A stretch of DNA of 36,496 bases. Origin: Oscillospiraceae bacterium. GTDB taxonomy: Bacteria; Bacillota_A; Clostridia; Oscillospirales; Oscillospiraceae. The notes beneath the pieces are model-generated. The model searched no databases. It worked only from the letters and a program-made list of their open reading frames with translations, and was not told the DNA's origin. The DNA lies in the NCBI GenBank assembly GCA_017627975.1, contig JAGAFT010000044.1, positions 1-36,496 of the forward strand, in the 5' to 3' direction. Positions within the stretch are counted from its first letter, which is position 1. Each line of letters starts with the position of its first letter. The position numbers were made by a program, and so were the translations under genes. Of the stretch, positions 2,286 to 36,496 are shown in pieces.

Positions 2286-2324
2286 CGAGTCTGTTTTATG
2301 GAACCTGTCAGATGTTACGTGAAA

Positions 2325-4532: not shown

Positions 4533-4576
4533 ACAGCATTCCTCCTAAAATATATTTTCCCGTTTGGGTTACTATG

Positions 4577-4602
4577 ATTATAACATGACATCATATTGTC
4601 AG
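4577..4602 (-). promoter_or_regulatory. Candidate promoter of the Tat flavoprotein gene
   Basis: On the minus strand TATAAT lies at 4582-4577 and CTGACA at 4602-4597. The spacer is only 14 nt, shorter than the optimum, as is common for promoters that need an activator such as LysR. The -35-like element abuts the dyad at 4601-4627. A second small dyad TGACA/TGTCA lies at 4586-4601. Confidence 0.45.
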
Positions 4603-6233: not shown

Positions 6234-6286
6234 AACATCTTAAATTGGCCATTCTATACATTTTGGCAAATGTGGAGGCAAGCTGC

Positions 6287-7792: not shown

Positions 7793-7811
7793 CATTTGTG
7801 GGGATGATAGG

Positions 7812-9002: not shown

Positions 9003-9058
9003 TCGCTTCTACTTCTTGCGTACTTAGTTTCCCACTTCTTGAGATAGGGGGCGTATTG

Positions 9059-13649: not shown

Positions 13650-14798
13650 ATGAAAATGAAAAAGATCCTCGCACTTGTCCTTGCATTGACGATGATCCTT
13701 GCTCTGGCCGCCTGCGGAAGCAGCGCGCCGGCAAGCACGCCCGCACCGTCTGCCACTCCGGCTCCGGAAGCATCAGAGGCACCGGCGGAAGCAGCTGAAG
13801 CACCCGAAGCAGAAGAGGCCCCGGCAGAAGAAGCTGAAGCTCCCGCGGAAGAGTCCGCCGAAGCCCCCGCCGCGGAAGAAGCCGCTGCGGAAGAAGCGCC
13901 GAGCTTTACCGGATCCTATTTGATGGGAACCGGCAGCGCCACCGGCAACTACTATGCGTTCGGCAATGCCGTCTGCACGGTCGTGAATAACGTCACTGGC
14001 GCCAACCTGACGGTCAACGCCACCGGCGGCTCCACGGAGAATGCCCGTCTGCTGGGCTCCAAGGAGAACGAGTTTGCCATGATCCAGTCGGATGTTTACA
14101 GCTATGCCCACCAGGGCGTTGAGCTGTTTGACGGCAGCGCGATCACGAACTTCCAGGCCGTTACAGCCTGCTATCCGGAAATGGTTCAGATCGTTGTGCG
14201 CAAGGACGCGGGGATCAGCTCCGTTGCCGATATGGCCGGTAAGAACATCTGCGTCGGCGCTGTCGGCTCCGGCTACGAAGTTGCCGCGCGCCAGATTCTC
14301 GGCGCCTACGGCATGACCTATGATGACATCAACGAGACCTTCGCCGACCAGGCGACGGCCAAGAACGGTGTTCAGGACGGCACCTTCGACGGAATGTTCC
14401 TCTGCTCCGGCTATCCCAACGGCAACGTTCAGGAGCTTTCCCTCACCGGTAAGATCGAGGTCCTGACCATTGACCAGGAGCATCTGGATATCCTGGTAAA
14501 GGATTATCCGTACTATTCCGCCTTCACCACCGAGACCGATGAGTATAACCTGGGCCACGAGATTACCTCTGTGGCGGTCAAGTGCATGCTGGTCTGCCTG
14601 GACAGCTTCTCCGAGGATGAGATCTATGCGCTGACCAAGTCCATTTATGAGCATCTGGGAGAGATTCAGGAGATCAACTCCAAGGCCAACTACATGAGCC
14701 TTGAGGATGCCCTTTCCGGTATTCCCAGTGACCTGCATCCCGGCGCTCTGAAATATTATGAAGAGCAGGGACTGACGATTCCCGATTATCTGAAGTAA
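13650..14798 (+). CDS. TAXI-family TRAP transporter substrate-binding lipoprotein
   Basis: A 382-residue lipoprotein. The signal peptide ends in a LAAC lipobox (Cys about residue 23), so it is anchored to the outer face of the membrane. A linker of about 60 residues made almost only of Ala, Glu and Pro follows. From about residue 90 the TAXI receptor domain begins: LMGTGSATGNYYAFGNAV, ATGGSTENARLLGS and EFAMIQSDVYSYAHQG are hallmark TAXI blocks. Characterised TAXI receptors bind small organic acids such as glutamate or 2-oxoglutarate-like compounds; the ligand here is unknown. The downstream gene encodes the matching permease. ATG 13650 is preceded closely by AAAGGA; ATG 13656 is an alternative that does not change the mature protein. 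Confidence 0.95.
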   Translation: MKMKKILALVLALTMILALAACGSSAPASTPAPSATPAPEASEAPAEAAEAPEAEEAPAEEAEAPAEESAEAPAAEEAAAEEAPSFTGSYLMGTGSATGNYYAFGNAVCTVVNNVTGANLTVNATGGSTENARLLGSKENEFAMIQSDVYSYAHQGVELFDGSAITNFQAVTACYPEMVQIVVRKDAGISSVADMAGKNICVGAVGSGYEVAARQILGAYGMTYDDINETFADQATAKNGVQDGTFDGMFLCSGYPNGNVQELSLTGKIEVLTIDQEHLDILVKDYPYYSAFTTETDEYNLGHEITSVAVKCMLVCLDSFSEDEIYALTKSIYEHLGEIQEINSKANYMSLEDALSGIPSDLHPGALKYYEEQGLTIPDYLK

Positions 14799-14841
14799 GG
14801 GAAGCTGCCTGAAGCACAGCGCAATCCAAATAAAACGGGCG

Positions 14842-14870
14842 GGGCAGATCCTCTGCTCTGCCCTTCTTTT
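14842..14870 (+). terminator. Intercistronic hairpin between receptor and permease (attenuator)
   Basis: GGGCAGA (14842-14848) pairs with TCTGCCC (14857-14863) and is followed by TTCTTTT. Placed between receptor and permease genes, such a terminator lets most transcripts end after the receptor, giving more receptor than permease. This role is inferred. Confidence 0.78.
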
Positions 14871-14885
14871 ATCAGGAGTAAGTCT

Positions 14886-16820
14886 ATGGGTCTGTTCAAA
14901 CGTAACACAGTACCGGAAGAAGTCAAGCTGGACGAAATCGACCGAGAATCGAAATACAAGCTGTTTTCCCCTCTCGGGGATAAGATCATCACGGTGATTC
15001 TGACTGCATGGGCGATCTTCCAACTGTATGCATCCATTTCCAATAAGGTTCCGCTGCAGATTCTGCGGTACACACACCTGGGGCTGGCCATCTCCATGGC
15101 CTATATCCTCTATCCCGCGACCAAGCACGCCGACCGGCATAAGCTGCCCTGGTATGACTGCGTGCTGGCGGCCCTGTTTGTGTGCGTGGCAGGCTATTTT
15201 ATCATTAATTATAAGCCGCTTCAGTTCCGCGCGGGAAGCTATACCCAGCTGGATACCGTGATGGCGGGGCTGGGCATTGCCTTGGTGCTGCTGGCATGCT
15301 GGCGCGTGGTCGGTCCGCCGATTGTGATTATCGCCACCTGCTTTTTCATTTACGGGCTGGTCGGAAAGTATATGGGCGGTTTTCTTCAGCACCGCGGCTT
15401 CAGCCTGAAGCGCATCATCACCCATCTGTTTATCACCACCGAAGGCGTGATCGGAAACCCGCTCGGCGTCTGCTCAACCTATATCTATCTTTTTATCCTC
15501 TTCGGGGCCTTCCTGGAGAAGACCGGCATCGGCCAGTTCTTTATTGATCTGGCAAACGCGCTGGCCGGTTTTGCGGCAGGGGGCCCGGCCAAGGTGGCGG
15601 TGCTTTCCTCGGCTTTGCAGGGAACGGTTTCCGGCTCCTCGGTGTCCAACACCGTTTCGACGGGCTCCTTTACCATCCCGATGATGAAATCTCTGGGCTA
15701 TGAACCGGAATTTGCCGGCGCGGTGGAAGCGGCCGCCTCCACCGGCGGCCAGATCATGCCCCCGGTCATGGGCTCCGCGGCCTTTCTGATCTCGGAGACC
15801 TGCAGCGTGCCATACCGTCAGCTGATGGTGATCGCGGTTATTCCGGCTCTCCTTTACTTTACGGGAATCTGGATTTCCGTCCATCTGGAGGCAAAGCGCC
15901 TGGGCCTGAAGGGAATCCCGCGGGAAAAGCTCCCGAAGCTCTGGCCGCTGCTGCGGGATAAAGGGCATCTGCTGCTGCCGCTGCTGGCGATTATCTATCT
16001 GATGCTCACCGGCTTTACCATCACGCGCGCTGCCCTGATCGGCTGCCTCATCTGCGTCGTGGTGCCTTATGTCCGGAAGGGAACGCGGGTTCCGTTTCTC
16101 CAGATTTTCAAGGCGCTGCCTCAGGCTTCGCGAAGTGTGATCTCGGTGGCGACGGCCTGCTCCACGGCGGGGATCATCATCGGCATGGTGACCCTGACCG
16201 GCCTTGGCCAGCGCATTGGCACCGGAATCTTCAGCCTGGTGGGAAACAGCGTGTTCCTCGCTCTGGTCTGTGCCATGTTCACCTCGCTGATCCTGGGGAT
16301 GGGTGTTTCCACCACGTCCAACTATCTGATCACTTCGACCATTGCCGCGCCGATCCTGATTAAAGCAGGCGTCCCGCTCCTGGCTGCGCATATGTTCTGC
16401 TTCTACTTCGGGATTGTTGCGGATATTACGCCTCCTGTCGCACTGGCCGCCTATGCGGGCTCCGCCATCGCGAAGGGGAATGCCTTTAAAACCGGCGTGA
16501 ATGCGACCAAGCTTGCCATTGCCGCGTTCCTGATTCCCTATATGTTCGCCCTGAACCCGAAGATGATCATGATCGGCGGAACGTTCCTGGAAGCCCTACC
16601 CATGATCCTGACGGCGATCGTCGGACTGGTCGGGATCGGCGGAGGGTTTATCGGTTATCTGAACGGCCCGATGAGTATGCCGCTGAGACTGATTTCGTTT
16701 GCAGGCGGTATCTGCATGGTGATCCCCGGTACCCTGACCGACATCATCGGCGCCGCGGTCATCGCGGCGGTATTTGCGGTCAACTGGCTGCTTGGGAAGA
16801 AGCGCGCCAGCGCGAGCTGA
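14886..16820 (+). CDS. TAXI-type TRAP transporter fused permease (4TM/12TM, DctQM fusion)
   Basis: A 644-residue polytopic membrane protein. The N-terminal part (to about 150) holds the four helices equivalent to DctQ. The rest is the DctM-like 12-helix transporter with blocks such as FGAFLEKTGIGQFFIDLANA, GTVSGSSVSNTVSTG, AAASTGGQIMPPVMGSAAF and GVSTTSNYLITS. Together with the preceding receptor it forms a sodium- or proton-driven secondary uptake system without ATPase. An N-terminal cytoplasmic stretch (FKRNTVPEEVKLDEIDRESK) precedes the first helix. ATG 14886 has an AGGAG site 8 nt upstream. The 3' end overlaps the convergent YcxB-like gene by 41 nt. Confidence 0.95.
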   Translation: MGLFKRNTVPEEVKLDEIDRESKYKLFSPLGDKIITVILTAWAIFQLYASISNKVPLQILRYTHLGLAISMAYILYPATKHADRHKLPWYDCVLAALFVCVAGYFIINYKPLQFRAGSYTQLDTVMAGLGIALVLLACWRVVGPPIVIIATCFFIYGLVGKYMGGFLQHRGFSLKRIITHLFITTEGVIGNPLGVCSTYIYLFILFGAFLEKTGIGQFFIDLANALAGFAAGGPAKVAVLSSALQGTVSGSSVSNTVSTGSFTIPMMKSLGYEPEFAGAVEAAASTGGQIMPPVMGSAAFLISETCSVPYRQLMVIAVIPALLYFTGIWISVHLEAKRLGLKGIPREKLPKLWPLLRDKGHLLLPLLAIIYLMLTGFTITRAALIGCLICVVVPYVRKGTRVPFLQIFKALPQASRSVISVATACSTAGIIIGMVTLTGLGQRIGTGIFSLVGNSVFLALVCAMFTSLILGMGVSTTSNYLITSTIAAPILIKAGVPLLAAHMFCFYFGIVADITPPVALAAYAGSAIAKGNAFKTGVNATKLAIAAFLIPYMFALNPKMIMIGGTFLEALPMILTAIVGLVGIGGGFIGYLNGPMSMPLRLISFAGGICMVIPGTLTDIIGAAVIAAVFAVNWLLGKKRASAS

Positions 16821-22059: not shown

Positions 22060-22107
22060 GCTCATGTTATACTTGTAAATGAAGTGAAAAGAGTGGAGTG
22101 GAGACAC

Positions 22108-23175
22108 TTGAAAAGCAAACTTCGTTATAAAGAAATTGTTCTTGGCCTGCTCCTGAGCGGGAGCATGCTGCTCGGCGGCTGCGGGGGAGGGTCCGTGCAA
22201 AGCGTGCAGCCGCAAACGACGGCGGCTCCCGTGGAAGAGGCGGCCATGCCCCAGGAAGAGCCTCAAATCACGCAGAACCAGTCTGCAGAACTCGTACCGG
22301 CAGAGCCGGAGGAAACAAAAGACAGACTGCTGATCCACATAGAGCGCACAAGAAAGGACGCCCTCGATCCGGCAGAGGGAAGGACAAGGATCCTGGAATA
22401 CGCCTGGGACAATGTCCGGCTGGAATCGACCCGGTATCCGACGGCTGCGGCCGCGATCATGGAGACCATGGCAGCCCGCCAGGATGCCTGGTATACCGGA
22501 ACGGGAGAGACGGCTTCCGACGCCTACGGATACAACGCCATGCTTGAGGCGGCGGAGGACGGATTCACCATTGCCCGGGAGTATGGAAACCTGCCGGAAG
22601 CCTGCTGCGCCGAGCGCTTTGTCACCGTGCTCCGTGCCGACGAAACGGTCTGCGCCTTCCTGGTCAGCACGGCGACCGATCTCGGCATCGGGCCGAAGAA
22701 GACTGTTTACGAGCTGCTCTGCTTCAACCCGAAGAGCGGGGAACTGCTGTTCTCGGAGCGGGCCGCGGAGGATGCGGGGCCACTTTATACGGCTCTGAAC
22801 TCCCGCTGGACAGAAACCGCGGCCGAGGGCACAGCCGCAGTGACGATCCGGACGATGGACGAGCTGATCGGGGAAAACGTTGAGATCGTGGATCAGGTCG
22901 TCATCGGCGACGGGGGAGAGGCCTGCCTGCTGGTGTTCAGCGGTACGGCGCTGGATGTGCAGATCTGCTCCGTATCCTTTGCGGACAGCTTCGCGGTGGA
23001 TCAGCAGCTCTTCTACTGCGGCGAGCTGAGCGACTGCGCGCTGCAGATGGCGCTGCTTTTCCCGGGGGATCTGCCCAGCACCATGCTGCGCTGGCGCGAC
23101 AGCGAGGGAGAGCATGAATATTTGGTGATGCTCTCCGGAGAGGACGGACATATTTTCCTGAGCGAACACCTCTGA
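22108..23175 (+). CDS. Lipoprotein of unknown function following the ABC exporter
   Basis: About 355 residues from TTG 22108. The signal peptide ends LLGGC, a lipobox, followed by a Gly/Ser/Gln/Pro/Glu-rich linker (to about residue 75). The rest is a mixed alpha/beta domain with 'RYPTAAAAIMETMAARQDAWY', 'ERFVTVLRADETVCAFLVS' and 'LLCFNPKSGELLF'. Its order resembles the DUF4163/DUF3298 arrangement of RsiV/PdaC-type surface proteins, but I am not sure. Start choice: TTG 22108 has GGAGTGGAG just upstream and yields a normal signal peptide; GTG 22084 lacks a site. It is 48 nt behind the exporter and probably in the same operon. A strong terminator follows. Confidence 0.72.
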   Translation: MKSKLRYKEIVLGLLLSGSMLLGGCGGGSVQSVQPQTTAAPVEEAAMPQEEPQITQNQSAELVPAEPEETKDRLLIHIERTRKDALDPAEGRTRILEYAWDNVRLESTRYPTAAAAIMETMAARQDAWYTGTGETASDAYGYNAMLEAAEDGFTIAREYGNLPEACCAERFVTVLRADETVCAFLVSTATDLGIGPKKTVYELLCFNPKSGELLFSERAAEDAGPLYTALNSRWTETAAEGTAAVTIRTMDELIGENVEIVDQVVIGDGGEACLLVFSGTALDVQICSVSFADSFAVDQQLFYCGELSDCALQMALLFPGDLPSTMLRWRDSEGEHEYLVMLSGEDGHIFLSEHL

Positions 23176-23375: not shown

Positions 23376-24590
23376 ATGAATAAATCCGATATTAAAAAAG
23401 TTGTTCTTGCATATTCCGGCGGTCTGGACACCTCCATCATTATCCCATGGCTGAAGGAGAACTACAACAACTGTGAAGTCATTGCCGTCTCCGGCAATGT
23501 GGGACAGGCGGACGAGCTTGAGGGCCTGGAAGAGAAGGCAAAGAAGACCGGCGCATCCAAGCTCTATGTTCTGGACCTGACGGATGAGTATGTGGACGAG
23601 TACATTATCCCCTGCATGAAGGCGGGCGCCGTGTATGAGGACTATCTGCTGGGCACCAGCCACGCGCGTCCCTGCATCGCCAAGGGCCTGGTGGAGATCG
23701 CCCTGAAGGAAGGCGCGGACGCCATCGTCCACGGCTGCACGGGCAAGGGCAACGACCAGGTGCGTTTCGAGCTGGCCATCAAGCACTTTGCACCGAACAT
23801 GCCGATCATCGCCCCGTGGCGTGAGTGGAGCATCAAGTCCCGTGACGAAGAGATCGACTATGCCGAGGCGCATAACATTCCCCTGAAGATCAACCGCGAG
23901 ACGAACTACTCCAAGGACAAGAACCTCTGGCACCTGTCCCACGAAGGATTGGATCTGGAAGACACCGGAAACGAGCCGATGTATGAAAAGCCGGGCTTCC
24001 TGGAGATGGGCGTTTCCCCGCTGCAGGCGCCGGACGAACCCACCTATGTGACGCTGGACTTTGTTCAGGGCGTGCCGGTGGCGCTGGAAGGTGAAAAGAT
24101 GAGCGCCAAGGAGATCATCCTGAAGCTGAACGAACTGGGCGGAAAGAACGGCATCGGCCTGATTGACATCGTGGAAAACCGTCTCGTCGGCATGAAGTGC
24201 CGCGGCGTGTATGAGACCCCGGGCGGCACGATCCTCTATGCGGCGCACAGCGCTCTTGAGACCCTGTGCCTCGATAAGCTTACCATGCACGAGAAGCAGA
24301 AGCTCTCCATCACCTTCGGCGAGCTGGTCTACAACGGCCAGTGGTTCACCCCGCTGCGCGAAGCGCTCAGCGCCTTCGTGGACAAGACCCAGGAGCGCGT
24401 CACCGGCAAGGTAAAGCTCAAGCTCTACAAGGGCAACATCATCAAAGCCGGCATCTGGAGCGACAAGTCCCTCTACAGTGAAGAGATCGCGACCTTCGGC
24501 GAGAGCGACTACAACCAGGCGGATGCCGCCGGCTTCATCAATCTCTACGGGCTGCCCATCAAGGTGCAGGCCATCGTGGACGGAAAGTAA
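23376..24590 (+). CDS. argG: Argininosuccinate synthase
   Basis: A 404-residue enzyme of full length that joins citrulline and aspartate using ATP (seventh step from ornithine to arginine). The N-terminal PP-loop AYSGGLDTS is at residues 12-20, followed by '[12 protein letters not shown]' and '[20 protein letters not shown]', all family blocks. ATG 23376 follows TAAGGAG at 8-9 nt. It is the first gene of the arginine operon, behind a strong promoter with two ARG-box-like sites. argH begins 3 nt after its stop, so the last two steps are co-expressed first in the operon. Confidence 0.98.
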
Positions 24591-24593
24591 GCC

Positions 24594-25970
24594 ATGGCAA
24601 AGATGTGGGCCGGCGTCACGGCCGGAAAGACCGACCGTCTGGCGGATGACTTCAATTCTTCCATCCGCTTCGACAGCCGGATGGCCCGTCAGGATATCAC
24701 CGGGAGCATCGCCCACGCGGCGATGCTCGCGGCGAAGGGGATCATCTCCGAAGCGGACTGCAATGCGCTGACCGAGGGCCTCGCCGGGATCCTCGAGGAT
24801 CTGGAAAGCGGCAAGCTCCTGATCGACGAAAGCGCGGAAGACATCCACATGTTTGTCGAGCAGGTGCTGACCGAGCGCATCGGGGATACCGGAAAAAAAC
24901 TCCACACTGCCCGCAGCCGGAACGACCAGGTGGCGCTGGACCTGAGAATGTATCTGAGAGATGAGAGTGACGAAATCGCCGCTCTCATCCGCGACTTTCT
25001 TCATGTCCTCACCGATCTTGCGGAGAAGCACACCGAAACCATCATGCCGGGCTATACGCATCTGCAGCGGGCTCAGCCGGTGAGCTTCGGCCACTATATG
25101 ATGGCCTACGCGATGATGCTTCTGCGCGATCTGGACCGGCTGAAAGACGGCCGAAAGAGAATGAACGTCTCGCCAATCGGCTGCTGCGCCCTGGCGGGGA
25201 CAACCTATGACACCGACCGGTATCTGGAGGCGGAGAAGCTGGGCTTTGACGGCATCTGCCTCAACAGCATGGACGGCGTCTCGGACAGGGACTTTGCCCT
25301 GGAGCTGCTGAGCACGCTGTCTGTCCTTATGATGCATCTCTCGCGCCTCTCCGAAGAGCTGATCCTGTGGGCGAGCTGGGAATTTCGCTTTATCGCGTTC
25401 TCCGATGCCTACACCACGGGCTCCTCCATCATGCCGCAGAAGCGCAACGCCGATATGGCAGAGCTGGTACGCGGGAAGACCGGACGGGTCTACGGAGACC
25501 TGATGGGCCTGCTCACCACCCTGAAAGGGCTGCCCCTTGCCTACAACAAGGACATGCAGGAGGACAAGGAAGGCGTCTTTGACGCCTGCGACACGGTGAA
25601 GATGTGCCTTCGAATCATGACCCCCATGGTCGGAAGCATGACCGTGAACCGTGAAAACATGCTGCGCGCGGCCCAGGGCGGCTTCATCAACGCCACGGAT
25701 CTCGCCGACTGGCTTGTGAAAAAGGGTATGCCCTTCCGGAGCGCCTATAAGATTTCCGGCCAGCTGGTGCGGACGTGCATGGAGAGCGGGCAGGTCCTGG
25801 AGACGCTTCCGCTGGAGACCTACAAAAGTTACAGCGAGCTCTTCGACGAGAGCCTCTATGAGGCCATCGACCTGAAAACCTGCATGGAAAAACGAATCAG
25901 CGAGGGCGGCACCTCGGTCGCCTCTGTGAAAAAGCAGATTGCGTTTGTCAGAAAGGAACTGGACCAATGA
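24594..25970 (+). CDS. argH: Argininosuccinate lyase
   Basis: A 458-residue member of the fumarase/aspartase superfamily that splits argininosuccinate into arginine and fumarate. The superfamily signature GSSIMPQKRN begins at about residue 276; 'HTARSRNDQVALDLRMYLRD' and 'TIMPGYTHLQRAQPVSFGHY' carry other active-site residues. Length is normal. It starts 3 nt after argG and overlaps the next gene by the ATGA tetranucleotide, so its translation is coupled to both neighbours. Confidence 0.98.
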   Translation: MAKMWAGVTAGKTDRLADDFNSSIRFDSRMARQDITGSIAHAAMLAAKGIISEADCNALTEGLAGILEDLESGKLLIDESAEDIHMFVEQVLTERIGDTGKKLHTARSRNDQVALDLRMYLRDESDEIAALIRDFLHVLTDLAEKHTETIMPGYTHLQRAQPVSFGHYMMAYAMMLLRDLDRLKDGRKRMNVSPIGCCALAGTTYDTDRYLEAEKLGFDGICLNSMDGVSDRDFALELLSTLSVLMMHLSRLSEELILWASWEFRFIAFSDAYTTGSSIMPQKRNADMAELVRGKTGRVYGDLMGLLTTLKGLPLAYNKDMQEDKEGVFDACDTVKMCLRIMTPMVGSMTVNRENMLRAAQGGFINATDLADWLVKKGMPFRSAYKISGQLVRTCMESGQVLETLPLETYKSYSELFDESLYEAIDLKTCMEKRISEGGTSVASVKKQIAFVRKELDQ

Positions 25971-26881
25971 CAAAGGTTTTTATAGACGGAAGCGCCGGCA
26001 CCACCGGCCTGCGGATCCATGAGCGGCTGGCCGACCGGAAAGAGCTGGAGATCCTGAACCTCCCGCCGGAGCTGCGCAAGGATAAGACGGCCAGGGAAGA
26101 AATCCTGAACGCCGCGGATGTGGCCTTCCTCTGCCTGCCGGACGCGGCGGCCATCGAGGCGGCGGACCTGGTGCACGGCAATACCGCGGTCATCGACACC
26201 TCCACCGCCCACCGGACCGAACCCGGCTGGGTCTACGGCTTCCCGGAGCTCCACGGCCTGCGCGAAAAGATCGCCGCCAGCCACCGGATCGGAAATCCGG
26301 GCTGCCATGCCAGCGGCTTCATCTCCCTGGTGGAGCCCCTGGTACATGAGGGCCTGGTGTCGCCGGACACGGCTTTCACCTGTTTCTCGGTGACCGGGTA
26401 TTCCGGCGGCGGAAAGAGCATGATCGCCGACTACGAGGCGGGGGAGAGAGACGCGGCGCTGGATTCGCCCCGGCAGTATGCCCTGGGCCAGAGCCACAAG
26501 CACCTGAAGGAGATGGTAAAGATCTCCGGGCTCACGACGGCCCCGTTCTTCTGCCCGATTGTCGCGGACTATTACAGCGGCATGGCGGTGACGGTCCCGC
26601 TGTTCCGAAAAGACCTGAAGGGCAGCGTCGAGGACGTGAAGCAGCTTTACCGGGCCTGCTACCACAGTGCAATTGTCCACTATGAGGAGTACAGCGAAGG
26701 CATGATCGCCGGCAACGCCCTCTCCGGACGCGACGACATGGCGATTACGGTGGCCGGCAACGACGAAAGAATCCTGCTGATCTCCACCTTCGACAACCTT
26801 GGCAAGGGCGCCTCCGGAGCGGCCATCCAGAACATGAATATTCTTCTGGGACTTGACGAAACCACCGGACTTGCAGTATAA
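25967..26881 (+). CDS. argC: N-acetyl-gamma-glutamyl-phosphate reductase, short (type 2) form
   Basis: A 304-residue NADPH-dependent reductase of N-acetylglutamyl phosphate to the semialdehyde. 'KVFIDGSAGTTGLRIHERL' at the N-terminus is the nucleotide-binding turn of the short type 2 ArgC class. The catalytic cysteine is C113 in GNPGCHASGF, and 'YSGGGKSMI' follows. The type 2 form is about 40 residues shorter than the common type 1. The start overlaps the argH stop by 4 nt. The gap to argJ is 37 nt. Confidence 0.95.
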   Translation: MTKVFIDGSAGTTGLRIHERLADRKELEILNLPPELRKDKTAREEILNAADVAFLCLPDAAAIEAADLVHGNTAVIDTSTAHRTEPGWVYGFPELHGLREKIAASHRIGNPGCHASGFISLVEPLVHEGLVSPDTAFTCFSVTGYSGGGKSMIADYEAGERDAALDSPRQYALGQSHKHLKEMVKISGLTTAPFFCPIVADYYSGMAVTVPLFRKDLKGSVEDVKQLYRACYHSAIVHYEEYSEGMIAGNALSGRDDMAITVAGNDERILLISTFDNLGKGASGAAIQNMNILLGLDETTGLAV

Positions 26882-26918
26882 CAGAGCGAAACTGAACCCC
26901 TTTGAAGGAGAAATAACC

Positions 26919-28154
26919 ATGAACAATCCTGTTTCATCGATTAAACCCATCGGCGGCGGTGTCTGTGCCGCAAAAGGCTTTCAGGCTGCGGGGGTATACT
27001 GCGGAATCCGGAAGAACCCGAACAAGAAAGACCTCGGCCTCATCGTGAGCGACGTGAAGGCGAACGCCGCGGCCGTTTATACCACGAACCTCGTCAAGGG
27101 CGCGCCCCTGACCGTGACAAAGAACCACATCGCCGACGGCAAAGCCCAGGCGGTCATCTGCAACAGCGGCAACGCCAACACCTGCAACGCCGACGGCATC
27201 GAAATTGCCGAGACGATGAGCAGTCTCCTGGGCAATGCACTCGGGATTGACGCAACTGACGTGGTGGTGGCTTCCACCGGTGTCATCGGGCAGCCGCTTC
27301 CCATCGCCCCCATCGCCGCGGGCATTCCGCCGCTGGTGGCGGCGCTGTCCGCGGAAGGAAGCGAGGAGGCCTGCCACGCCATCATGACCACCGACACAAA
27401 GAAGAAAGAAGTTGCGGTGGAGTTTGAACTGGGGGGAAAAACCTGTCATCTGGGCGGCATCGCCAAGGGCAGCGGCATGATTCACCCCAATATGGCCACC
27501 ATGCTGGTCTTCCTGACCACGGACGCCGCGATCAGCGCCCCCATGCTGCAGAAGGCGCTCTCCGGCGATATCCGGACCACCTTCAACATGATCAGCGTGG
27601 ACGGCGACACCTCCACCAACGACATGGTGACGATCCTCGCCAACGGCCTTGCCGGAAATGAGGAGATCACGGAAGAGGGCGAGGACTTCAGCACCTTTAT
27701 GTGCGCCCTGAACACCGTAAATGTACAGCTCTGCCGGATGATCGCCGGAGACGGCGAAGGTGCGACGAAGCTTCTGGAATGCTCCGTCACCGGGGCGAAG
27801 GACGACAAGGCGGCAAAGACGGTCGCCCGCAGCGTCATCAGCTCAAGCCTGACCAAGGCGGCCATGTTCGGCGAGGACGCCAACTGGGGCCGCGTGCTCT
27901 GCGCCATCGGTTACAGCGGCGCGGACGTCGACATCCACAAGGTGGATGTGGTTTTCCATTCCGTGGCAGGCGATGTCACGGTCTGTGAGAATGGCGCCGG
28001 CGTCCCCTTCTCCGAGGAGAAGGCGGCGGAGATTCTGCACGAGAAGGAAATCGATATCCTGATCACCCTCGGCGACGGAGAAGCGGCCGCCACCGCCTGG
28101 GGCTGCGACCTCACGTATGATTACGTGAAAATCAACGGAGACTACCGGACTTGA
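26919..28154 (+). CDS. argJ: Bifunctional ornithine acetyltransferase / N-acetylglutamate synthase
   Basis: A 411-residue enzyme that moves the acetyl group from N-acetylornithine to glutamate, and in its bifunctional form can also use acetyl-CoA, so no argA or argE is needed. The self-cleavage site is visible in 'GSGMIHPNMATMLVF': cleavage before T194 leaves Thr as the N-terminal nucleophile of the beta chain. 'NSGNANTCNADG' and 'DANWGRVLCAIGYSG' are other family blocks. ATG 26919 follows GAAGGAG; an in-frame ATG at 26853 would overlap argC by 29 nt without a ribosome site and is rejected. Confidence 0.96.
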   Translation: MNNPVSSIKPIGGGVCAAKGFQAAGVYCGIRKNPNKKDLGLIVSDVKANAAAVYTTNLVKGAPLTVTKNHIADGKAQAVICNSGNANTCNADGIEIAETMSSLLGNALGIDATDVVVASTGVIGQPLPIAPIAAGIPPLVAALSAEGSEEACHAIMTTDTKKKEVAVEFELGGKTCHLGGIAKGSGMIHPNMATMLVFLTTDAAISAPMLQKALSGDIRTTFNMISVDGDTSTNDMVTILANGLAGNEEITEEGEDFSTFMCALNTVNVQLCRMIAGDGEGATKLLECSVTGAKDDKAAKTVARSVISSSLTKAAMFGEDANWGRVLCAIGYSGADVDIHKVDVVFHSVAGDVTVCENGAGVPFSEEKAAEILHEKEIDILITLGDGEAAATAWGCDLTYDYVKINGDYRT

Positions 28155-28162
28155 AAAGAATG

Positions 28163-28187
28163 TCATCCCCGCCTCCGGCGGGGATGA
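28163..28187. repeat. Intercistronic hairpin A between argJ and argB, CCCCGCC-TCC-GGCGGGG core
   Basis: TCATCCCCGCC and GGCGGGGATGA form an 11-bp perfect stem with a TCC loop, 8 nt after the argJ stop. The 17-base core is identical to that of the hairpin at 31304-31332. There is no T-run, so it is not a simple terminator; it may protect or process the mRNA. Confidence 0.75.
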
Positions 28188-28243
28188 GACGGAAGATTCC
28201 GGCAAATCTGCAGATCCTGCAAACGAAAATGGGAGACCCTGAC

Positions 28244-29125
28244 ATGAATCAGTTTACAAACAGCCAGAGGGCCCAGGTGCTGACCCAGGCCCTGCCCTAT
28301 ATCCGGCAGTACAACGGAAAGATCGTTGTGGTCAAGTACGGCGGCAACGCCATGGTCAGCGAGGAACTGCGCGAGCAGGTCATGGAGGACATTGTCCTGC
28401 TGTGGCTGGTGGGTGTGCGGGTCGTGCTGGTACACGGCGGCGGGCCGGAGATCAGCGATATGATGAGCAGACTCGGCAAAAAGCCGGAGTTTGTGGACGG
28501 ACTTCGCGTCACGGACCAGGAGACCGTGGATATTGTCCAGATGGTTCTCGCCGGTAAGGTCAACAAGACGCTGGTAAAGCTTCTGGAGGTCAAGGGCGGC
28601 AAGGCCATGGGCATCTCGGGCATGGACGGCGGCCTGATCGAAGCGCGGATGAAGCGGGCTGAGCTGGGTTATGTCGGGAGCATCACCGGCGTGAACATCG
28701 AACCGGTGATGGACCTGCTGGAGAAGGGATACATCCCCGTGATCTCTACGCTGGGCTGCGACAAAGAGGGCAACACCTACAACATCAACGGCGACACGGC
28801 CGCGGCTTTCATTGCCGGTGCGCTGGGCGCCGAGCGACTGATCATGATGACGGACATCGCCGGGGTCCTGCGGGACAAAAACGATCCGAACACCCTGATC
28901 CCGGAACTGACCATCGGCGAGGCCATTAAGCTTTTTGAAGAAAAAGTCATCGCGGGCGGCATGATCCCGAAGGTGGAATGCTGCATCGACGCCATCCACC
29001 GCGGCGTGGAGCGCGTGATCATCATGGACGGCAGAGTGCCGCACTCGATCCTGATGGAGATTCTGACGGACGAAGGTGCGGGGACCATGGTATACGGAGA
29101 GGAGACAGAATTATGTCAGAACTGA
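28244..29125 (+). CDS. argB: Acetylglutamate kinase
   Basis: A 293-residue amino-acid kinase that phosphorylates N-acetylglutamate, usually the feedback-controlled step. 'VVKYGGNAMV' binds ATP, and 'VLVHGGGPEISDMMSRLGKKPEFV' and 'INGDTAAAFIAGALGAERLIMMTDIAGVL' are family blocks. The N-terminal helix 'TNSQRAQVLTQALPYIRQYNG' is of the kind found in hexameric, arginine-inhibited enzymes, so inhibition by arginine is likely. ATG 28244 is chosen by GGGAGA upstream and by family alignment; the frame is open back to 28151, but that stretch contains the hairpin and does not look like protein. The end overlaps argD by 13 nt. Confidence 0.97.
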   Translation: MNQFTNSQRAQVLTQALPYIRQYNGKIVVVKYGGNAMVSEELREQVMEDIVLLWLVGVRVVLVHGGGPEISDMMSRLGKKPEFVDGLRVTDQETVDIVQMVLAGKVNKTLVKLLEVKGGKAMGISGMDGGLIEARMKRAELGYVGSITGVNIEPVMDLLEKGYIPVISTLGCDKEGNTYNINGDTAAAFIAGALGAERLIMMTDIAGVLRDKNDPNTLIPELTIGEAIKLFEEKVIAGGMIPKVECCIDAIHRGVERVIIMDGRVPHSILMEILTDEGAGTMVYGEETELCQN

Positions 29126-30276
29126 AGAGCATCGATAAGGAATTTATCGCAAATACCTATGCGCGCTTCCCGGTGGAGCTGGTATGCGGCAAAGGATCCC
29201 TGGTCTATGACGAGACCGGCAAGGAATACATTGACATGGGCAGCGGCATCGGCGTTACCGCCTTCGGCATTGCCGACGACGAATGGAAGGCGGCGGTGAC
29301 CGAACAGCTTGGCAAGCTTCAGCATATGTCAAACCTCTATTACACCGAGCCCTGTGCCATGCTGGCAAAGCTGCTCTGTGAGAAGACCGGCATGAAAAAG
29401 GTTTTCTTCTGCAACTCCGGCGCGGAGGCCAACGAGGGCGCCATCAAGGCCGCCCGCAAGTACGCCGCCGAGAAGAAGGGACCGGAGTACTTCACCATCG
29501 TGACCCTGGAAAACAGCTTCCACGGGCGGACCCTCACGACACTGGCCGCCACGGGCCAGGCCCATTATCACGAGCTGTTCCAGCCGCTGACCCCGGGCTT
29601 TGTCCACGCTCCGGCGAACAACCTGGAGGCGGTGAAGACCGCAGCACTTCAGAACAAAGCCGCCGCGGTCCTGATCGAATGCATCCAGGGCGAGGGCGGC
29701 GTCATCCCGCTGCAGAAAGACTTTGTCACCGGCCTTGCGGAGTTCTGCAAGGCGGAAGACATCCTCCTGATGGTGGATGAGGTTCAGACCGGCAACGGCC
29801 GTACCGGCGAGCTCTATGCCTATATGAACTTCGGGGTGCAGCCGGATGTGATCTCCACGGCGAAAGGCCTCGGCGGCGGACTTCCGCTGGGCGCGGTGCT
29901 CTACGGAGAGAAGACCGAGTTCACCCTGGGGGCCGGCGACCACGGCTCCACCTTCGGCGGAAACCCCGTCTGCTGCGCAGGGGCACTAAGCATCCTGAAG
30001 CGGATCGATGAAAAGCTCCTGGCGGACGTGAAGAAAAAGAGCGCCATGGCCTTTGAAGCCCTGCAGGGCGCCCCCGGCGTGGAGAGCGTCAGCGGCATGG
30101 GCCTTATGATCGGTATCAAGACCGTAAAGCCGGCTCCCGACGTGGTGAAGGCCTGCATGGAGAACGGAGTTCTCTGCCTCACGGCGAAGGACAAAGTCCG
30201 GCTGCTCCCGGCACTCAATATTCCGGAAGATGTATTGATGAAGGCGATCAATGTGATCAAAGGAGCGTGTGCATGA
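29113..30276 (+). CDS. argD: Acetylornithine aminotransferase
   Basis: A 387-residue class III PLP aminotransferase that converts N-acetylglutamate semialdehyde to N-acetylornithine using glutamate. The PLP lysine is K251 in '[14 protein letters not shown]'; '[20 protein letters not shown]' and '[13 protein letters not shown]' (with the PLP-ring aspartate) are intact. ATG 29113 has GGAGAGGAG upstream and lies inside argB (13-nt overlap). The stop overlaps the argF start by ATGA. ArgD homologues often also serve in lysine synthesis, which is of interest because of the DapF domain at the end of this operon. Confidence 0.96.
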
Positions 30277-31256
30277 ATCTGAAGGGAAAGAGCTTTCTGA
30301 AGCTGCTGGACTTTACACCGGCAGAGATCGAAGGGCTGCTGGATCTGGCGGCCGAGCTGAAGGCAAAGAAAAAGGCCGGGATTCCGCACCGGCTTCACGA
30401 GGGAAAGAACATCGCCCTGGTGTTTGAGAAGACCAGTACCCGGACGCGCTGCAGCTTTGAAGTTGCCGCGGCGGATCTCGGAATGCATCCGGTGTACCTG
30501 GACCCCAAGAGCTCACAGCTGGGGAAGAAGGAGAGCATCGCCGATACGGCCCGTGTCCTGGGCCGGATGTTCGACGGCATTGAGTATCGCGGATTTGAAC
30601 AGACTCGTGTGGAGAAGCTCGCCGCTTACTCCGGGGTGCCGGTGTGGAACGGCCTGACCAATGAGTTCCATCCCACCCAGATCCTGGCGGACTTCCTCAC
30701 AATCCGGGAGCACTTCGGCACCCTGAAAGGAAAGAAACTGGTATATCTTGGGGATGCCCGCTACAACATGGGCAATTCCCTGATGGTGGGCTGTGCCAAG
30801 ATGGGCCTGCATTTCGTAGCCTGCGCTCCGGAGAAGTATTTCCCGGATGCGGCGCTGATTGAAGAATGCCGGGCCGTTGCGGCCGAGACCGGCGCGACGC
30901 TGGAGTTTGAAACCGACCCGATGAAGGCCGTTCAGAACGCGGATGTCCTGTATACGGATATCTGGGTCTCCATGGGCGAGCCGGAAGAGGTCTGGGCGGA
31001 GCGTATTCATGACCTCCTGCCGTATCAGGTGACACAGACGCTGATGGAGACCGCGGGTCCGCAGTGCCGCTTTATGCACTGCCTGCCGGCCTATCACGAC
31101 CTGGAGACCGAGAACGGCGTCGCGATCCACGAGAAGTTCGGCCTGGAAGCCATGGAAGTGACGGATGAGGTCTTTGAGGGCCCCCAGTCCATCGTCTTCG
31201 ATGAGGCGGAAAACCGCATGCACACCATCAAGGCGGTCATGGCTGCGACGCTGTAA
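30273..31256 (+). CDS. argF: Ornithine carbamoyltransferase
   Basis: A 327-residue enzyme that makes citrulline from ornithine and carbamoyl phosphate. The carbamoyl-phosphate site STRTR is at residues 55-59, and the ornithine-site motif HCLPAYHD begins at residue 269. The start overlaps the argD stop by 4 nt, with AAAGGAG 7 nt upstream. The next genes make carbamoyl phosphate, so enzyme and substrate supply are adjacent. This placement favours an anabolic enzyme (argF) over a catabolic one (arcB); no arcA or arcC is present. Confidence 0.97.
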
Positions 31257-31374: not shown

Positions 31375-32469
31375 ATGGAAACTGTCTATCTGGTATTGGA
31401 AAACGGGATGGCCTTTGCGGGTCATCCCATTGGTGCATGGAAGGGGAACGATCCCGGCCTTGAGACCGTAGGCGAGCTGGTGTTTACCACCGGCATGACC
31501 GGCTACCTGGAGACCCTGAGCGACCCCAGCTATGCCGGGCAGATCATCCTTCAGACCTTCCCCATGATCGGCAACTACGGCCTGATCCCGGAAGACTTCG
31601 AGGGGGCCTGTCATGCGAAGGGCTATGTGGTACGCGAGCTCTGTGATGCTCCGTCAAATTTCCGCAGTGAGGGGACACTGGATTCCTTCCTGAAGGAACA
31701 GGGAATTCCGGGTATCTGCGGCGTGGATACCCGTGCCCTGACCAGACTGATTCGTGAGCAGGGCGTAATGAACGCCTGCCTCTGCCGGACGGTTCCGGAA
31801 GACCTCGGAACGGTCAAAGACTACGCGGTGCGACATGTCGTCACCCAGGTCAGCACCCCGACGGCCCAGGTCTTTGAGCCGCGGAACACAGGGGACGATT
31901 CTATGTGCGCCTTTCATGTGGCTCTTCTGGACTACGGCGCCAAGCGGAACATCATCCGCAGCCTGCAAAAGAGGGGCTGCCGGGTGACGTTGCTGCCCCA
32001 CGACACTGCCGCCGAGGAGATCCTTGCCATGGCGCCGGACGGACTGATGCTCTCCAACGGGCCCGGAGACCCGGCGGAGAATGTCTTTGAGGTCGAACAG
32101 CTCCGGAAGCTGGTGGGGAAACTTCCCATCTTCGGCATCTGTCTCGGCCATCAGCTCTGCGCCCTGGCCATGGGCGGGAGAACCTACAAGCTCAAATATG
32201 GGCACCGCGGGGCCAATCAGCCTGTTACGGACGGTGCACGCACCTGGATCACCACCCAGAACCATGGCTATGCCGTGGAGACGGAAAGCATGCAGGGCAT
32301 CGCGCATCTGAGTTTCCGCAACGCCAACGACGGGAGCTGTGAAGGTCTGGACTACCCGGGCAAGCGCTGTTTCACGGTGCAGTTTCACCCGGAGGCCTGC
32401 GCGGGCCCCCATGACACGGAATTCCTGTTTGACCGCTTCCTGCGGATGATGAGAGGGGAGGAGGACTGA
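31375..32469 (+). CDS. carA: Carbamoyl-phosphate synthase small subunit (glutaminase)
   Basis: A 364-residue subunit that releases ammonia from glutamine and channels it to CarB. The N-terminal CarA domain ('GELVFTTGMTGYLETLSDPSYAGQI') is followed by a class I glutamine amidotransferase domain with the nucleophile C256 in GICLGHQL and the His in 'FTVQFHPEACAGP'. ATG 31375 has AAAGGAAC upstream. The stop is 1 nt before the carB start. As part of the arginine operon, the pair is probably arginine-regulated; whether a second, pyrimidine-linked copy exists cannot be seen. Confidence 0.97.
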   Translation: METVYLVLENGMAFAGHPIGAWKGNDPGLETVGELVFTTGMTGYLETLSDPSYAGQIILQTFPMIGNYGLIPEDFEGACHAKGYVVRELCDAPSNFRSEGTLDSFLKEQGIPGICGVDTRALTRLIREQGVMNACLCRTVPEDLGTVKDYAVRHVVTQVSTPTAQVFEPRNTGDDSMCAFHVALLDYGAKRNIIRSLQKRGCRVTLLPHDTAAEEILAMAPDGLMLSNGPGDPAENVFEVEQLRKLVGKLPIFGICLGHQLCALAMGGRTYKLKYGHRGANQPVTDGARTWITTQNHGYAVETESMQGIAHLSFRNANDGSCEGLDYPGKRCFTVQFHPEACAGPHDTEFLFDRFLRMMRGEED

Positions 32470-32470
32470 C

Positions 32471-35400
32471 ATGCCGAAGGACAGGAGCATCCATAAGGTC
32501 CTGGTGATCGGTTCCGGACCGATCGTCATCGGGCAGGCGGCTGAGTTTGACTACGCGGGCGCACAGGCCTGCCGCATCCTGCGGCAGGAAGGCATCGAGA
32601 CCGTCCTGGTCAACTCCAATCCCGCCACCATTATGACCGACAAGAAGCTGGCCGACGCCATCTATCTCGAACCCCTGACCCCGGAGACCCTGCGCCGCAT
32701 CATTGCCAAGGAGCGCCCGGACGGCCTGCTGGCAGGCCTCGGCGGCCAGACCGGTCTGACCCTCGCCATGCAGCTCAGCCGTGACGGAACCCTTCAGAAG
32801 TACGGCGTACGGCTTCTCGGCTCGGATATCGAGAGCATCGAGCGCGCCGAGGACCGCGAGCGCTTCCGTGAGACCCTGGAAGAGATGGGACAGCCGGTAA
32901 TTCCTTCCGCCACCGCCACCACGGTGGAGCAGGCGCTGCAGATCGCCTCGGAGATCGGCTACCCGGTTATTGTCCGTCCGGCCTATACCCTGGGCGGCAC
33001 CGGCGGCGGCATCGCGGATACCCCGGAGGAGCTCTCTTCCATCGCACGCAACGGCCTGGATCTTTCCCCCATTACGCAGGTCCTCATCGAGAAGTGTGTG
33101 TCCGGCTGGAAGGAGATCGAGTTTGAAACCATGCGTGACGCGGCCGGCAACGTGATTGCCGTCTGCAGCATGGAGAACTTTGACCCGGTGGGCATCCACA
33201 CCGGCGACTCCATCGTGGTGGCGCCGGCTCTGACACTGGCGGACAGGGAGTACCAGATGCTGCGCAGCGCGGCGCTGGACATCATTACCGCCCTCGGCAT
33301 CGTCGGCGGCTGCAACTGCCAGTTCGCGCTGAACCCCGAGAGCTTTGAATACGCGGTCATCGAGGTCAATCCCCGCGTTTCCCGTTCCTCGGCCCTGGCG
33401 TCGAAGGCCACCGGCTATCCCATCGCGAAGATCAGCACGCGCCTGGCCCTGGGCTATACCCTGGACGAGATCCCCAACGATATTACCGGCAAGACCTGCG
33501 CCTGCTTTGAGCCGGCGCTGGACTATGTGGTGGTGAAGCTGCCAAAATGGCCCTTTGACAAGTTCCCCCACGCCTCGCGCCGTCTGGGGACCCAGATGAA
33601 AGCCACGGGCGAGGTGATGGCCATCGCGCCAAGCTTCGAGATGGCCATGATGAAGGCGGTGCGCGGCGCGGAAATCTCTCTGGACAGCCTGAATTTGGCT
33701 TCCGCAGACCCGCGTCCGCTCCGTACGCGCCTGCTGGATCAGGATGACCACCGGCTCTTTACGGTTTTCGAAGCCCTGAAGCAGGGGATGACACCGGAAG
33801 AGATTCATGCGCTTACGAAGATCGACCTCTTCTTCCTTCGGAAGCTGGAAGGTCTCGCCGCCTTTGAGCTGCGTATTGCGGGCAGCCCCCTGAACGGCGA
33901 GGATTACGCCCTGGCCAAGCGCCTGGGCTACCCCGACTCGGCCCTGCGCCGCCTCAGCGGAGCGGCGCTTCCGGCGGAAACCGCCTTCTCGTACAAGATG
34001 GTGGACACCTGCGCAGCCGAGTTCGACGCCGAGACACCCTATTTCTACTCTTCCTGCGATGCGCTCTGCGAATCCCGCAGCTTCCCGCGCAGCGGAAAGC
34101 CCGTGGTCATGGTCCTGGGCTCCGGCCCCATCCGGATCGGCCAGGGCATCGAGTTCGACTACAGCTCGGTGCACTGCGTCTGGACCCTGCGGGAGATGGG
34201 CTACGACGTGGTCATCGTGAACAACAACCCCGAGACCGTCTCCACCGACTACGACACCGCCGACCGGCTCTACTTTGAGCCCCTCTGCCCGGAAGACGTC
34301 TGGAATATTATCCGGGTGGAAAAGCCTGTGGGCGTGGTGGTGGCCTTCGGCGGCCAGACGGCCATCAAGCTGACCGGCTTTCTCTCCGAACAGGGGATTC
34401 CCATCCTGGGCACCTCCGCCGACAGCATTGACACCGCCGAGGACCGGGCCCGCTTCGACGCCCTGCTGGAGCGCTTCGGCATCAGCCGCCCGAAGGGCCA
34501 CGGCGTAAACACGCTGGACGAGGCCCTCTCCGCGGCCGAAGACCTGGGCTATCCGGTGCTTCTTCGCCCCAGCTATGTCATCGGCGGTCAGAACATGTGC
34601 ATTTCCCGCGACCGTGAAACCACGGAGACCTACATGCGAAGCATCCTTGCCGGCGGCATCGAAAACCCCGTCCTGGTGGATAAGTACATGCCCGGCATTG
34701 AGCTGGAGGTGGATGTGATCTCGGACGGCACGGATGTCCTGATCCCCGGCATCATGGAACACATCGAGCGTGCCGGCGTTCACAGCGGCGACTCCATCGC
34801 GGTCTACCCGCCTTACAACCTGACGGACCCTTTCCTCCACCGGATCTGCGACGTCTCCGAGAAGCTGACCCTGGCCCTGGGCACCAGGGGGCTGGTAAAC
34901 ATCCAGTACCTGATCTATGAAGGGGAGCTCTATGTCATCGAGGTCAACCCCCGCGCTTCCCGCACCGTGCCGTATATTTCCAAGGTGACGAATGTTCCCA
35001 TGGTGGACCTGGCATCACGGATCATGCTGGGTGCAAAACTGAAGGATCTGGGCTACGGCACCGGCCTCTGGAGAACCCCGCCCTACTATGCCGTAAAGGT
35101 CCCCGTGTTCTCCTTCGAGAAGCTCTCGGACGCGAACTCCATTCTTGGCCCCGAGATGAAGTCCACGGGCGAAGTTCTGGGCCTCAGCCGAAGTTTCGCC
35201 GAAGCCATGTACAAGGGCCTCACCGCCGCCGGATTTCACATTCCGTCCGCCGGGGACAAGGTGCTCCTCAGTGTGGAGACCGCGGATTACCCTGAAATTC
35301 TGAACCTCGCCCGGCGCTTCCACGAGCTGGGGTTGAAGCTCTGCGGCACCGAAGGCACCGCAGCCACCATTGCCGGGGCAGGCCTGCCGGTGGAACGCTT

Positions 35401-36496
35401 TGAAGCCGAACAGATTCTTCGCGGCGAGGCTCCGGGGCTGAAGCTCATCGTCTATACCGGCGCCGTAAAGGACGGCACCATGGGCGACTACATCGCTCTG
35501 CACCGCCGCGCCATGCAGCTTGGCATTCCCTGCCTTACCTCGCTGGATACCGCCGGGGCGCTGGCCGACAGCATCGCCTCCCGCTACAGCCAGAGCAATA
35601 CCGAGCTGGTGGATCTGAACCGCATGCGCCGCTGGCGCCGGACCATTCCCTTCACCAAGATGCAGGACTGCGGAAACGACTATATCTTCATCGAGAATTT
35701 CGACGGCAGCGTGTCCTGTCCGGAGTCCCTCTGCGTCTCCCTCTGCCAGCCCCACTACGGCATCGGCGCCGACGGTATTGTACTCATGGAGCACTCCGCC
35801 AGAGCGGATGTGCGCATGCGCAGCTTCAACCGGGACGGCAGCGAAGGAAAAATGGCCGGCAACAACCTGCGCTGCGTAGGCAAGTACATGTACGACAAGG
35901 GATATCTCCGGACGGAAAACCTTTCGGTGGAGACCGCCGGGGGCATTCGCCGCCTGAAACTCTTCTGCCGTGACGGGCAGGTGAGCTCGGTTTCCGTGGA
36001 TATGGGCAGGGCAAAGCTGGACGCCGCCTCGGTCCCCATCGACACGGAAAAGCTTCCTCAATCAGCATGCAGCGCCGATCAGAACGCATTCATCAAAGAT
36101 TATCCCGTTGAGATCGCAAACTCACCTTGGCGCATCACCTGTCTCTCGGTGGGCAATCCACACTGCGTGGTCTTCTGCGATACGGTGGACACCCTGGACC
36201 TGGAGACCGTGGGACCGCAGTTTGAGCATGCGGAAATTTTCCCCGAGCGGGTGAACGCCGAGTTCGTGAGGGTCGTGAGCCGTACGGCGCTGCGGATGCG
36301 GGTCTGGGAGCGCGGCAACGGCGCAACGCTCGCCTGCGGGACCGGGGCCTGCGCGGCCGTGGTGGCCGCGGTCGAAAACGGCGTCTGCGACAAGGGAACC
36401 GACGTCCGGGTGACCCTCCCGGGCGGTGACCTGATCGTCAATTATACCGACGAGAGGGTGGTCTTGACCGGCAGCGCCAATGTCGTATTCTCCGGA
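32471..36496 (+). CDS. carB: Fusion: carbamoyl-phosphate synthase large subunit (CarB) + diaminopimelate epimerase (DapF) domain, 3' end beyond window
   Basis: One uninterrupted frame of 1342 codons, still open at the last base. Residues 1 to about 1050 are a complete CarB: two ATP-grasp halves (starts VLVIGSGPIVIGQAAEFDYA and VMVLGSGPIRIGQGIEFDYS, each with EVNPR) and the C-terminal MGS-like allosteric domain (VLLSVETADYPEIL ... DTAGALADSI). After a short RMRRWRR stretch, a DapF domain begins at about 1057: FTKMQDCGNDYIFIEN, GIGADGIVLM, FNRDGSEGKM, VGNPHCVVF and ERGNGATLACGTGACAAVV. It reaches the last strand (VLTGSANVVFSG), so only a few residues should be missing. DapF converts LL- to meso-diaminopimelate for lysine and peptidoglycan. 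The first catalytic Cys (CGNG in the family) is Ala1129 here; the second, Cys1289, is present. Start: GGGGAGGAGG before ATG 32471. CarB is certain, DapF homology very strong, epimerase activity doubtful. Confidence 0.95.
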   Translation, partial: MPKDRSIHKVLVIGSGPIVIGQAAEFDYAGAQACRILRQEGIETVLVNSNPATIMTDKKLADAIYLEPLTPETLRRIIAKERPDGLLAGLGGQTGLTLAMQLSRDGTLQKYGVRLLGSDIESIERAEDRERFRETLEEMGQPVIPSATATTVEQALQIASEIGYPVIVRPAYTLGGTGGGIADTPEELSSIARNGLDLSPITQVLIEKCVSGWKEIEFETMRDAAGNVIAVCSMENFDPVGIHTGDSIVVAPALTLADREYQMLRSAALDIITALGIVGGCNCQFALNPESFEYAVIEVNPRVSRSSALASKATGYPIAKISTRLALGYTLDEIPNDITGKTCACFEPALDYVVVKLPKWPFDKFPHASRRLGTQMKATGEVMAIAPSFEMAMMKAVRGAEISLDSLNLASADPRPLRTRLLDQDDHRLFTVFEALKQGMTPEEIHALTKIDLFFLRKLEGLAAFELRIAGSPLNGEDYALAKRLGYPDSALRRLSGAALPAETAFSYKMVDTCAAEFDAETPYFYSSCDALCESRSFPRSGKPVVMVLGSGPIRIGQGIEFDYSSVHCVWTLREMGYDVVIVNNNPETVSTDYDTADRLYFEPLCPEDVWNIIRVEKPVGVVVAFGGQTAIKLTGFLSEQGIPILGTSADSIDTAEDRARFDALLERFGISRPKGHGVNTLDEALSAAEDLGYPVLLRPSYVIGGQNMCISRDRETTETYMRSILAGGIENPVLVDKYMPGIELEVDVISDGTDVLIPGIMEHIERAGVHSGDSIAVYPPYNLTDPFLHRICDVSEKLTLALGTRGLVNIQYLIYEGELYVIEVNPRASRTVPYISKVTNVPMVDLASRIMLGAKLKDLGYGTGLWRTPPYYAVKVPVFSFEKLSDANSILGPEMKSTGEVLGLSRSFAEAMYKGLTAAGFHIPSAGDKVLLSVETADYPEILNLARRFHELGLKLCGTEGTAATIAGAGLPVERFEAEQILRGEAPGLKLIVYTGAVKDGTMGDYIALHRRAMQLGIPCLTSLDTAGALADSIASRYSQSNTELVDLNRMRRWRRTIPFTKMQDCGNDYIFIENFDGSVSCPESLCVSLCQPHYGIGADGIVLMEHSARADVRMRSFNRDGSEGKMAGNNLRCVGKYMYDKGYLRTENLSVETAGGIRRLKLFCRDGQVSSVSVDMGRAKLDAASVPIDTEKLPQSACSADQNAFIKDYPVEIANSPWRITCLSVGNPHCVVFCDTVDTLDLETVGPQFEHAEIFPERVNAEFVRVVSRTALRMRVWERGNGATLACGTGACAAVVAAVENGVCDKGTDVRVTLPGGDLIVNYTDERVVLTGSANVVFSG

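Follow-up and report, generated by a model that had tools for sequence, protein, structure and literature searches.

We analysed positions 1 to 36,496 of contig JAGAFT010000044.1 of an Oscillospiraceae bacterium (assembly GCA_017627975.1), hereafter called the window, and found that its last gene joins in one frame the large subunit of carbamoyl phosphate synthase (CarB) and a diaminopimelate epimerase (DapF) domain in which one of the two catalytic cysteines is replaced. The reading that we favour, with a probability of about one half, is that this fused CarB of the arginine operon carries a retired DapF domain, which selection would have kept as a non-catalytic module that binds diaminopimelate (DAP) and/or dimerises, tuning CarB. 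The domain would have descended from a working epimerase and, with an alanine for the first cysteine, would no longer act as a two-base epimerase in this lineage, the meso isomer (meso-DAP) being supplied instead by a separate DapF or by Ddh. Its most likely role would be to bind DAP in a preserved pocket and/or to dimerise, thereby holding or tuning CarB beside the MGS regulatory domain. More tentatively, the fused enzyme could have been converted several times into a non-catalytic DAP-sensing domain, with the supply of carbamoyl phosphate following the DAP level.

The open frame starts with ATG at 32471 on the forward strand, runs for 1342 codons to 36496 and leaves the window at its right edge without a stop, as an earlier sequence-only reading of this DNA had reported. 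On the fused protein, the NCBIfam model for CarB (TIGR01369) scored 1357 bits over residues 2-1032, a full-length match above its curated cut-off of 1027, and the model for DapF (TIGR00652) scored 256 bits over residues 1060-1342 (model positions 2-266 of 270; curated cut-off 114.65). Pfam agreed with both and placed the MGS domain at residues 942-996. The model for bifunctional DapF/glutamate racemases, NF038284, reached 97 bits, below its curated cut-off of 350. According to TIGR01369 and Pfam, the CarB moiety (residues 1-1032; 32471..35566, +) consists of two ATP-grasp halves, the oligomerisation domain and the MGS regulatory domain (35294-35458), and the earlier description of a full CarB including its allosteric domain was thus correct. 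By its sequence this moiety is identified as a carbamoyl phosphate synthase large subunit; it resembles the TIGR01369 family in the full-length match with the MGS domain and in its position immediately after carA within an arginine operon, but differs from it by about 286 extra C-terminal residues from another enzyme family. Alignment with relatives delimited a short linker (residues 1033-1059; 35567..35647, +), followed, again as first read, by a DapF-fold domain (residues 1060-1342; 35648..36496, +) that is full-length except for about four C-terminal residues missing at the window end, as judged from TIGR00652, the ends of relatives and the model fold. The predicted model of this domain matches 9mro_A, and the domain differs from the DapF families (TIGR00652, PF01678) in the Ala for the first catalytic Cys and in its tether to CarB. 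The close relatives P0002, P0003 and P0005 end in FSGTFEY and the window ends in FSG; since these relatives continue with TFEY, the stop codon is predicted just beyond the window, about 4 codons past its end. Within the linker, Met1052 (codon 35624-35626) was present in 24 of the 25 relatives printed in the alignment. It is possibly the former dapF start codon, and internal initiation there might still occur. An assembly artefact or frameshift as the source of the fusion was ruled out, because this junction recurs across numerous independent records, among them contigs of 2.9 and 3.1 Mb.

The catalytic residues of Haemophilus influenzae DapF are Cys73, His159, Glu208 and Cys217 (PMC3581254; this and the other papers are cited from excerpts). 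In the window, the place of the first cysteine (Cys73, or Cys75 of the cyanobacterial enzyme) is taken by Ala1129 (35855..35857, +), which aligned with the first catalytic cysteine of solved DapFs and with a cysteine in active relatives. The second cysteine is kept as Cys1289 (36335..36337, +), and so are the His and Glu of the active site in domains of the window type. Across 121 fused proteins (the window and its 120 best matches), the first place was Ala in 120 and Ser in one protein other than that of the window, and the second place was Cys in all 121. Typing of 102 fused domains from 97 genomes gave 26 Cys/Cys, 47 Ala/Cys, 17 Gly/Cys, 6 Ser/Cys, 4 Phe/Cys, 1 Cys/Ser and 1 Thr/Ser. With 16 further genomes added (including G175, which a contig end truncates and which was scored intact on the first cysteine alone), the fused domain was intact in 32 of 113 typed genomes and had lost a catalytic cysteine, in some cases both, in 81, a share that is no census because set A (39 genomes) was gathered by searching with Ala-type domains and set B comprises the kin of one genome. 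When the phylum was sampled evenly, the fusion turned up in at least 15 of 299 genomes; two of the 15 had already been typed, and the 13 new ones split into 8 with a lost catalytic cysteine and 5 intact. Both cysteines were lost in a group around Dehalobacter, Syntrophomonas and Sporotomaculum, which made up 51 of the 120 matches listed in a further search (47 Ser/Ala, 3 Ser/Thr, 1 Ser/Ser); the others were 66 Cys/Cys, 2 Ala/Cys and 1 Gly/Cys. Across lineages, the residues found at a lost cysteine were Ala, Gly, Ser, Phe, Thr and Leu. The second cysteine is also Ser in the fused domains L183 (genome G132), L187 (G155) and L228 (G323), whether or not the first is also lost.

The double Cys-to-Ala variant of Escherichia coli DapF did not epimerise, yet still bound and stimulated RppH (PMC4227774), and Cys to Ser at either position strongly lowered turnover in a related racemase (PMC11602996). 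The E. coli variant gives direct evidence that loss of both cysteines leaves a DapF inactive as an epimerase; the window domain retains one of the two. Judging from its active-site residues, we infer that the fused domain of the window lineage has lost epimerase activity, and we classify it as a pseudoenzyme domain attached to a classical enzyme. The E. coli case (PMC4227774) also sets a precedent, in that a catalytically dead DapF influences a different enzyme by contact, with the difference that there a free protein acts on an RNA pyrophosphohydrolase, and here the domain is covalently attached to CarB, its putative target. The sequence-only reading had proposed either a structural or regulatory add-on or a fused housekeeping enzyme, and had overlooked the loss of the first cysteine, which is the weightier point. 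The two proposals appear to be two stages of one history. The add-on is favoured in the window lineage, where the housekeeping enzyme is unlikely because the first catalytic cysteine is Ala; the housekeeping reading holds for the 32 typed genomes with both cysteines, in which the fused domain is mostly the only DapF found. An example of the latter is the fusion of Ruminococcus sp. FC2018 (L013), which has the same architecture and linker but both cysteines, and whose genome (G027) gave no other DapF or Ddh in our searches; this protein is probably truly bifunctional.

We searched for relatives among proteins of 738-2348 aa, scoring them on the DapF part alone, and took the best 120 of at least 6143 passing proteins, from at least 7989 candidates. 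CPSase (PF02786) and DAP_epimerase (PF01678) domains occurred together in all 120 best matches listed, so the stop or frameshift near the junction that could have undone the first reading was not borne out, and the architecture proved to be already recorded in databases by automatic annotation, one UniRef entry bearing a name that begins with 'Multifunctional'. Of these proteins, 114 exceeded 1200 aa and the other six (829-1038 aa) are probably truncated. When species genomes were scanned, each of the best 80 loci contained DapF, fused to CarB in 39; the hosts of the fused loci were nearly all metagenome-assembled genomes (MAGs) labelled Clostridia, Ruminococcus or Oscillospiraceae, and three were labelled spirochaetes. 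Among 149 relatives of the genome carrying locus L001, the fused frame was present in at least 62 among the matches listed, and three further ones were reached through CarB. With so many carriers in both protein and genome searches, a fusion peculiar to this one genome was ruled out. No paper describing a CarB-DapF fusion was found in the open-licence literature, and the repeated retirement of the epimerase half together with the kept pocket seem to be new. Two of the relatives, P0108 (1512 aa) and P0115 (1503 aa), are three-part proteins: in front of CarB-DapF stands the N-terminal domain of CarA (PF00988), with the glutaminase domain missing. The spirochaete-labelled fusions L016, L048 and L076 come from MAGs that bear a Treponema or Spirochaetaceae label; L048 and L076 make up a branch of their own, and L016 groups with Oscillospiraceae and may be misbinned.

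The changed domains are under purifying selection, as indicated by low ratios of non-synonymous to synonymous substitution rates (dN/dS). For the DapF part of changed fusions, dN/dS ranged from 0.011 to 0.286 (11 of 13 pairs with an estimate, two being saturated), and the CarB part over the same 13 pairs gave 0.014-0.169. Three double-loss pairs were at 0.049-0.076, and seven intact pairs at 0.014-0.062, several of these at saturated dS. In the cyanobacterial enzyme, DAP is contacted by Asn66, Asn164, Asn197, Glu215, Arg216, Gly76, Asn77, Gly225, Thr226 and Asn13 (PMC12039745), of which Asn66, like Cys75, fell in place in our alignment with solved DapFs. All ten contact residues are present in the window. 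Among 77 changed domains, which are cysteine-less or cysteine-poor, nine of the ten were kept at 94-100% and Asn13 at 81%. In the double-loss Dehalobacter/Syntrophomonas group, each of the ten was kept in 45-47 of the 47 Ser/Ala domains.

Ddh yields meso-DAP without an epimerase. We therefore searched the genomes for Ddh (TIGR01921) as well as for a separate DapF (TIGR00652); genome completeness was not given, and an absence may reflect missing sequence. In the first 97 genomes, the 26 with intact fusions had a separate DapF in 4, Ddh in 15 and neither in 10; the 71 with changed fusions had a separate DapF in 47 (that of G005 being counted from two pieces at contig ends), Ddh in 37, of which 17 lacked a separate DapF, and neither in 7. 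Over all 113 genomes, a separate DapF accompanied 57 of 81 changed versus 8 of 32 intact fusions (Fisher 1.6e-5), and a separate DapF or Ddh accompanied 74 of 81 versus 21 of 32 (Fisher p 0.0016), both tests ignoring kinship. Among the 13 new fusion genomes of the phylum sample, the sole one without another route was intact, and the 12 with a separate DapF comprised 8 changed and 4 intact. Both cysteines were kept in all 57 separate DapFs with both places aligned (some genes having been fetched twice) and in 5 of 5 more. MurE, tried as a marker of a DAP-type cell wall, was above cut-off in 11 of 11 genomes tried, with a model that is not known to distinguish DAP enzymes from lysine or ornithine ones. 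In G001 (contig C7, locus L112) a separate dapF follows the changed fusion at a distance of no more than about 20-30 bases, as also in G040 (C1), G045 (C55) and G042 (C153); the one in G001 has both cysteines and 45% identity to the fused domain.

In a tree of the CarB part (99 fused and 13 unfused rows), all fused rows fell to the same side of a 100* branch, an arrangement that held until domain-less rows were added. The intact or changed state required at least nine changes on this tree, five to six of them forced by starred branches, and the window fell within a 49-row group without any intact domain. The tree alone gives no direction; we read the changes as losses because the separate DapFs all have the cysteine. 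A clean single origin was not obtained from the DapF side, where the tree of the domain needed four changes between fused and standalone, two forced by starred branches. We read the whole as one fusion origin with later losses, although more than one fusion is possible. At the start the fused protein was probably an active bifunctional enzyme; its epimerase half would then have fallen out of use on repeated occasions in lineages with a second source of meso-DAP.

Several observations weigh against a kept module that binds DAP and acts on CarB. When kinship was controlled, the test of cysteine loss against separate DapF came down to five independent pairs on well-supported branches and had no power (median p 1); over random pairings, separate DapF changed the same way in 1.3 and the opposite way in 0.7 of five pairs. 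In addition, the columns of the pocket were no better kept than the other conserved columns of active DapF (means 0.966 and 0.927, p 0.26). Since these are kept about equally, pocket retention is not proof of ligand binding, and the DapF fold could have been retained only to dimerise or stabilise CarB, with no ligand bound. DapF-type enzymes do form dimers (PMC11602996), and the dead E. coli DapF works through protein contact (PMC4227774). However, polar side chains that touch only the ligand in known structures are kept at 97-100% in dead domains and in 45-47 of 47 double-loss domains, and some lineages manage without the domain, making a purely structural module unlikely.

The dead domain also evolves faster than CarB in most pairs. 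The fused domains G112 and G063 are degenerate and have lost pocket contact residues, a stop (G014) and a frame break (G018) occur near the end of the domain, and, once 12 CarBs were added to the tree, domain-less CarBs nested inside the fused clade (G168 with G145, 100*; G129, 97*). Because unfused CarBs nest there, the DapF domain can be, and has been, lost from CarB, and such decay or loss in several lineages counts against the control of CarB by DAP that the module might exert. A slowly decaying passenger, which lost its function once another DapF or Ddh took over and now drifts towards loss, would fit these cases. It is rather improbable as a general account, given the dN/dS of 0.011-0.286 in dead domains, the full-length domains kept throughout the 49-row lineage of the window without a single Cys73, and the near-complete contact residues of double-loss domains. 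Least probable is that the domain still works as a housekeeping epimerase within the fusion, or that it has one-cysteine chemistry of another kind (elimination, a different substrate): the second cysteine, the site His and Glu and the contacts are all kept, dehydratases and other racemases are among the folds related to the domain model, and 7 of 71 genomes of sets A and B with a changed fusion, two of them labelled Treponema, showed no separate DapF or Ddh (they may be incomplete, or the fused domain may have residual activity), but E. coli DapF lost its activity with both cysteines changed to Ala (PMC4227774), the replacements vary by lineage, unlike one new active site, the second cysteine is also gone in some lineages, and a separate DapF gene is common beside changed fusions.

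If DAP proves to be a ligand of the retired domain of the favoured reading, a long-studied enzyme would gain a new allosteric input that joins arginine and pyrimidine synthesis to the cell wall. Should DAP sensing be true, the supply of carbamoyl phosphate to arginine synthesis and to the pyrimidine of the wall precursors linked to uridine diphosphate would follow the wall and lysine precursor. This one gene family shows every stage, from a working fused enzyme through single and double catalytic loss to decay and loss of the domain, which is a rare case. Where annotation goes automatically by domain alone, many genomes will be assigned a DapF that is probably non-functional.

In the window, the gene order is argGHCJBDF-carA-carB, with the fused gene last and the upstream genes identified by Pfam. 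On this basis the fused gene is assigned as the CarB of the arginine operon, because it is preceded by argG (argininosuccinate synthase; 23376..24590, +; PF00764, PF20979), argH (argininosuccinate lyase; 24594..25970, +; PF00206, PF14698), an argC-type semialdehyde dehydrogenase (25967..26881, +; PF22698, PF01118), argJ (26853..28154, +; PF01960), an argB-type amino acid kinase (28151..29125, +; PF00696), an argD-type class III aminotransferase (28978..30276, +; PF00202), whose start is uncertain and which overlaps the preceding gene, an argF-type carbamoyltransferase (30267..31256, +; PF00185, PF02729) and carA (31375..32469, +; PF00988, PF00117), the small subunit with its glutaminase domain, one base upstream of the fused gene. 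Elsewhere, carA accompanied the fusion in 29 of the 39 fused loci, and argF lay near 10 of 23 changed versus 0 of 16 intact fusions (in a view of at most about 2.8 kb upstream). Changed fusions therefore tend to sit in arginine operons. A second, unfused CarB above cut-off was found in 11 of the 39 genomes with a fusion.

The remainder of the window contains two open frames that gave no Pfam match, 2271-4577 (+; 768 aa), which is overlapped by a 735-codon frame on the opposite strand, and 22084-23175 (+; 363 aa). An AbiEii-like nucleotidyltransferase of type IV toxin-antitoxin systems is encoded at 618-1586, and type I restriction-modification genes for methylase, specificity and restriction subunits at 6245-12289. 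Finally, an NMT1-like binding protein gene adjoins that of a DctM-type TRAP transporter at 13650-16820.

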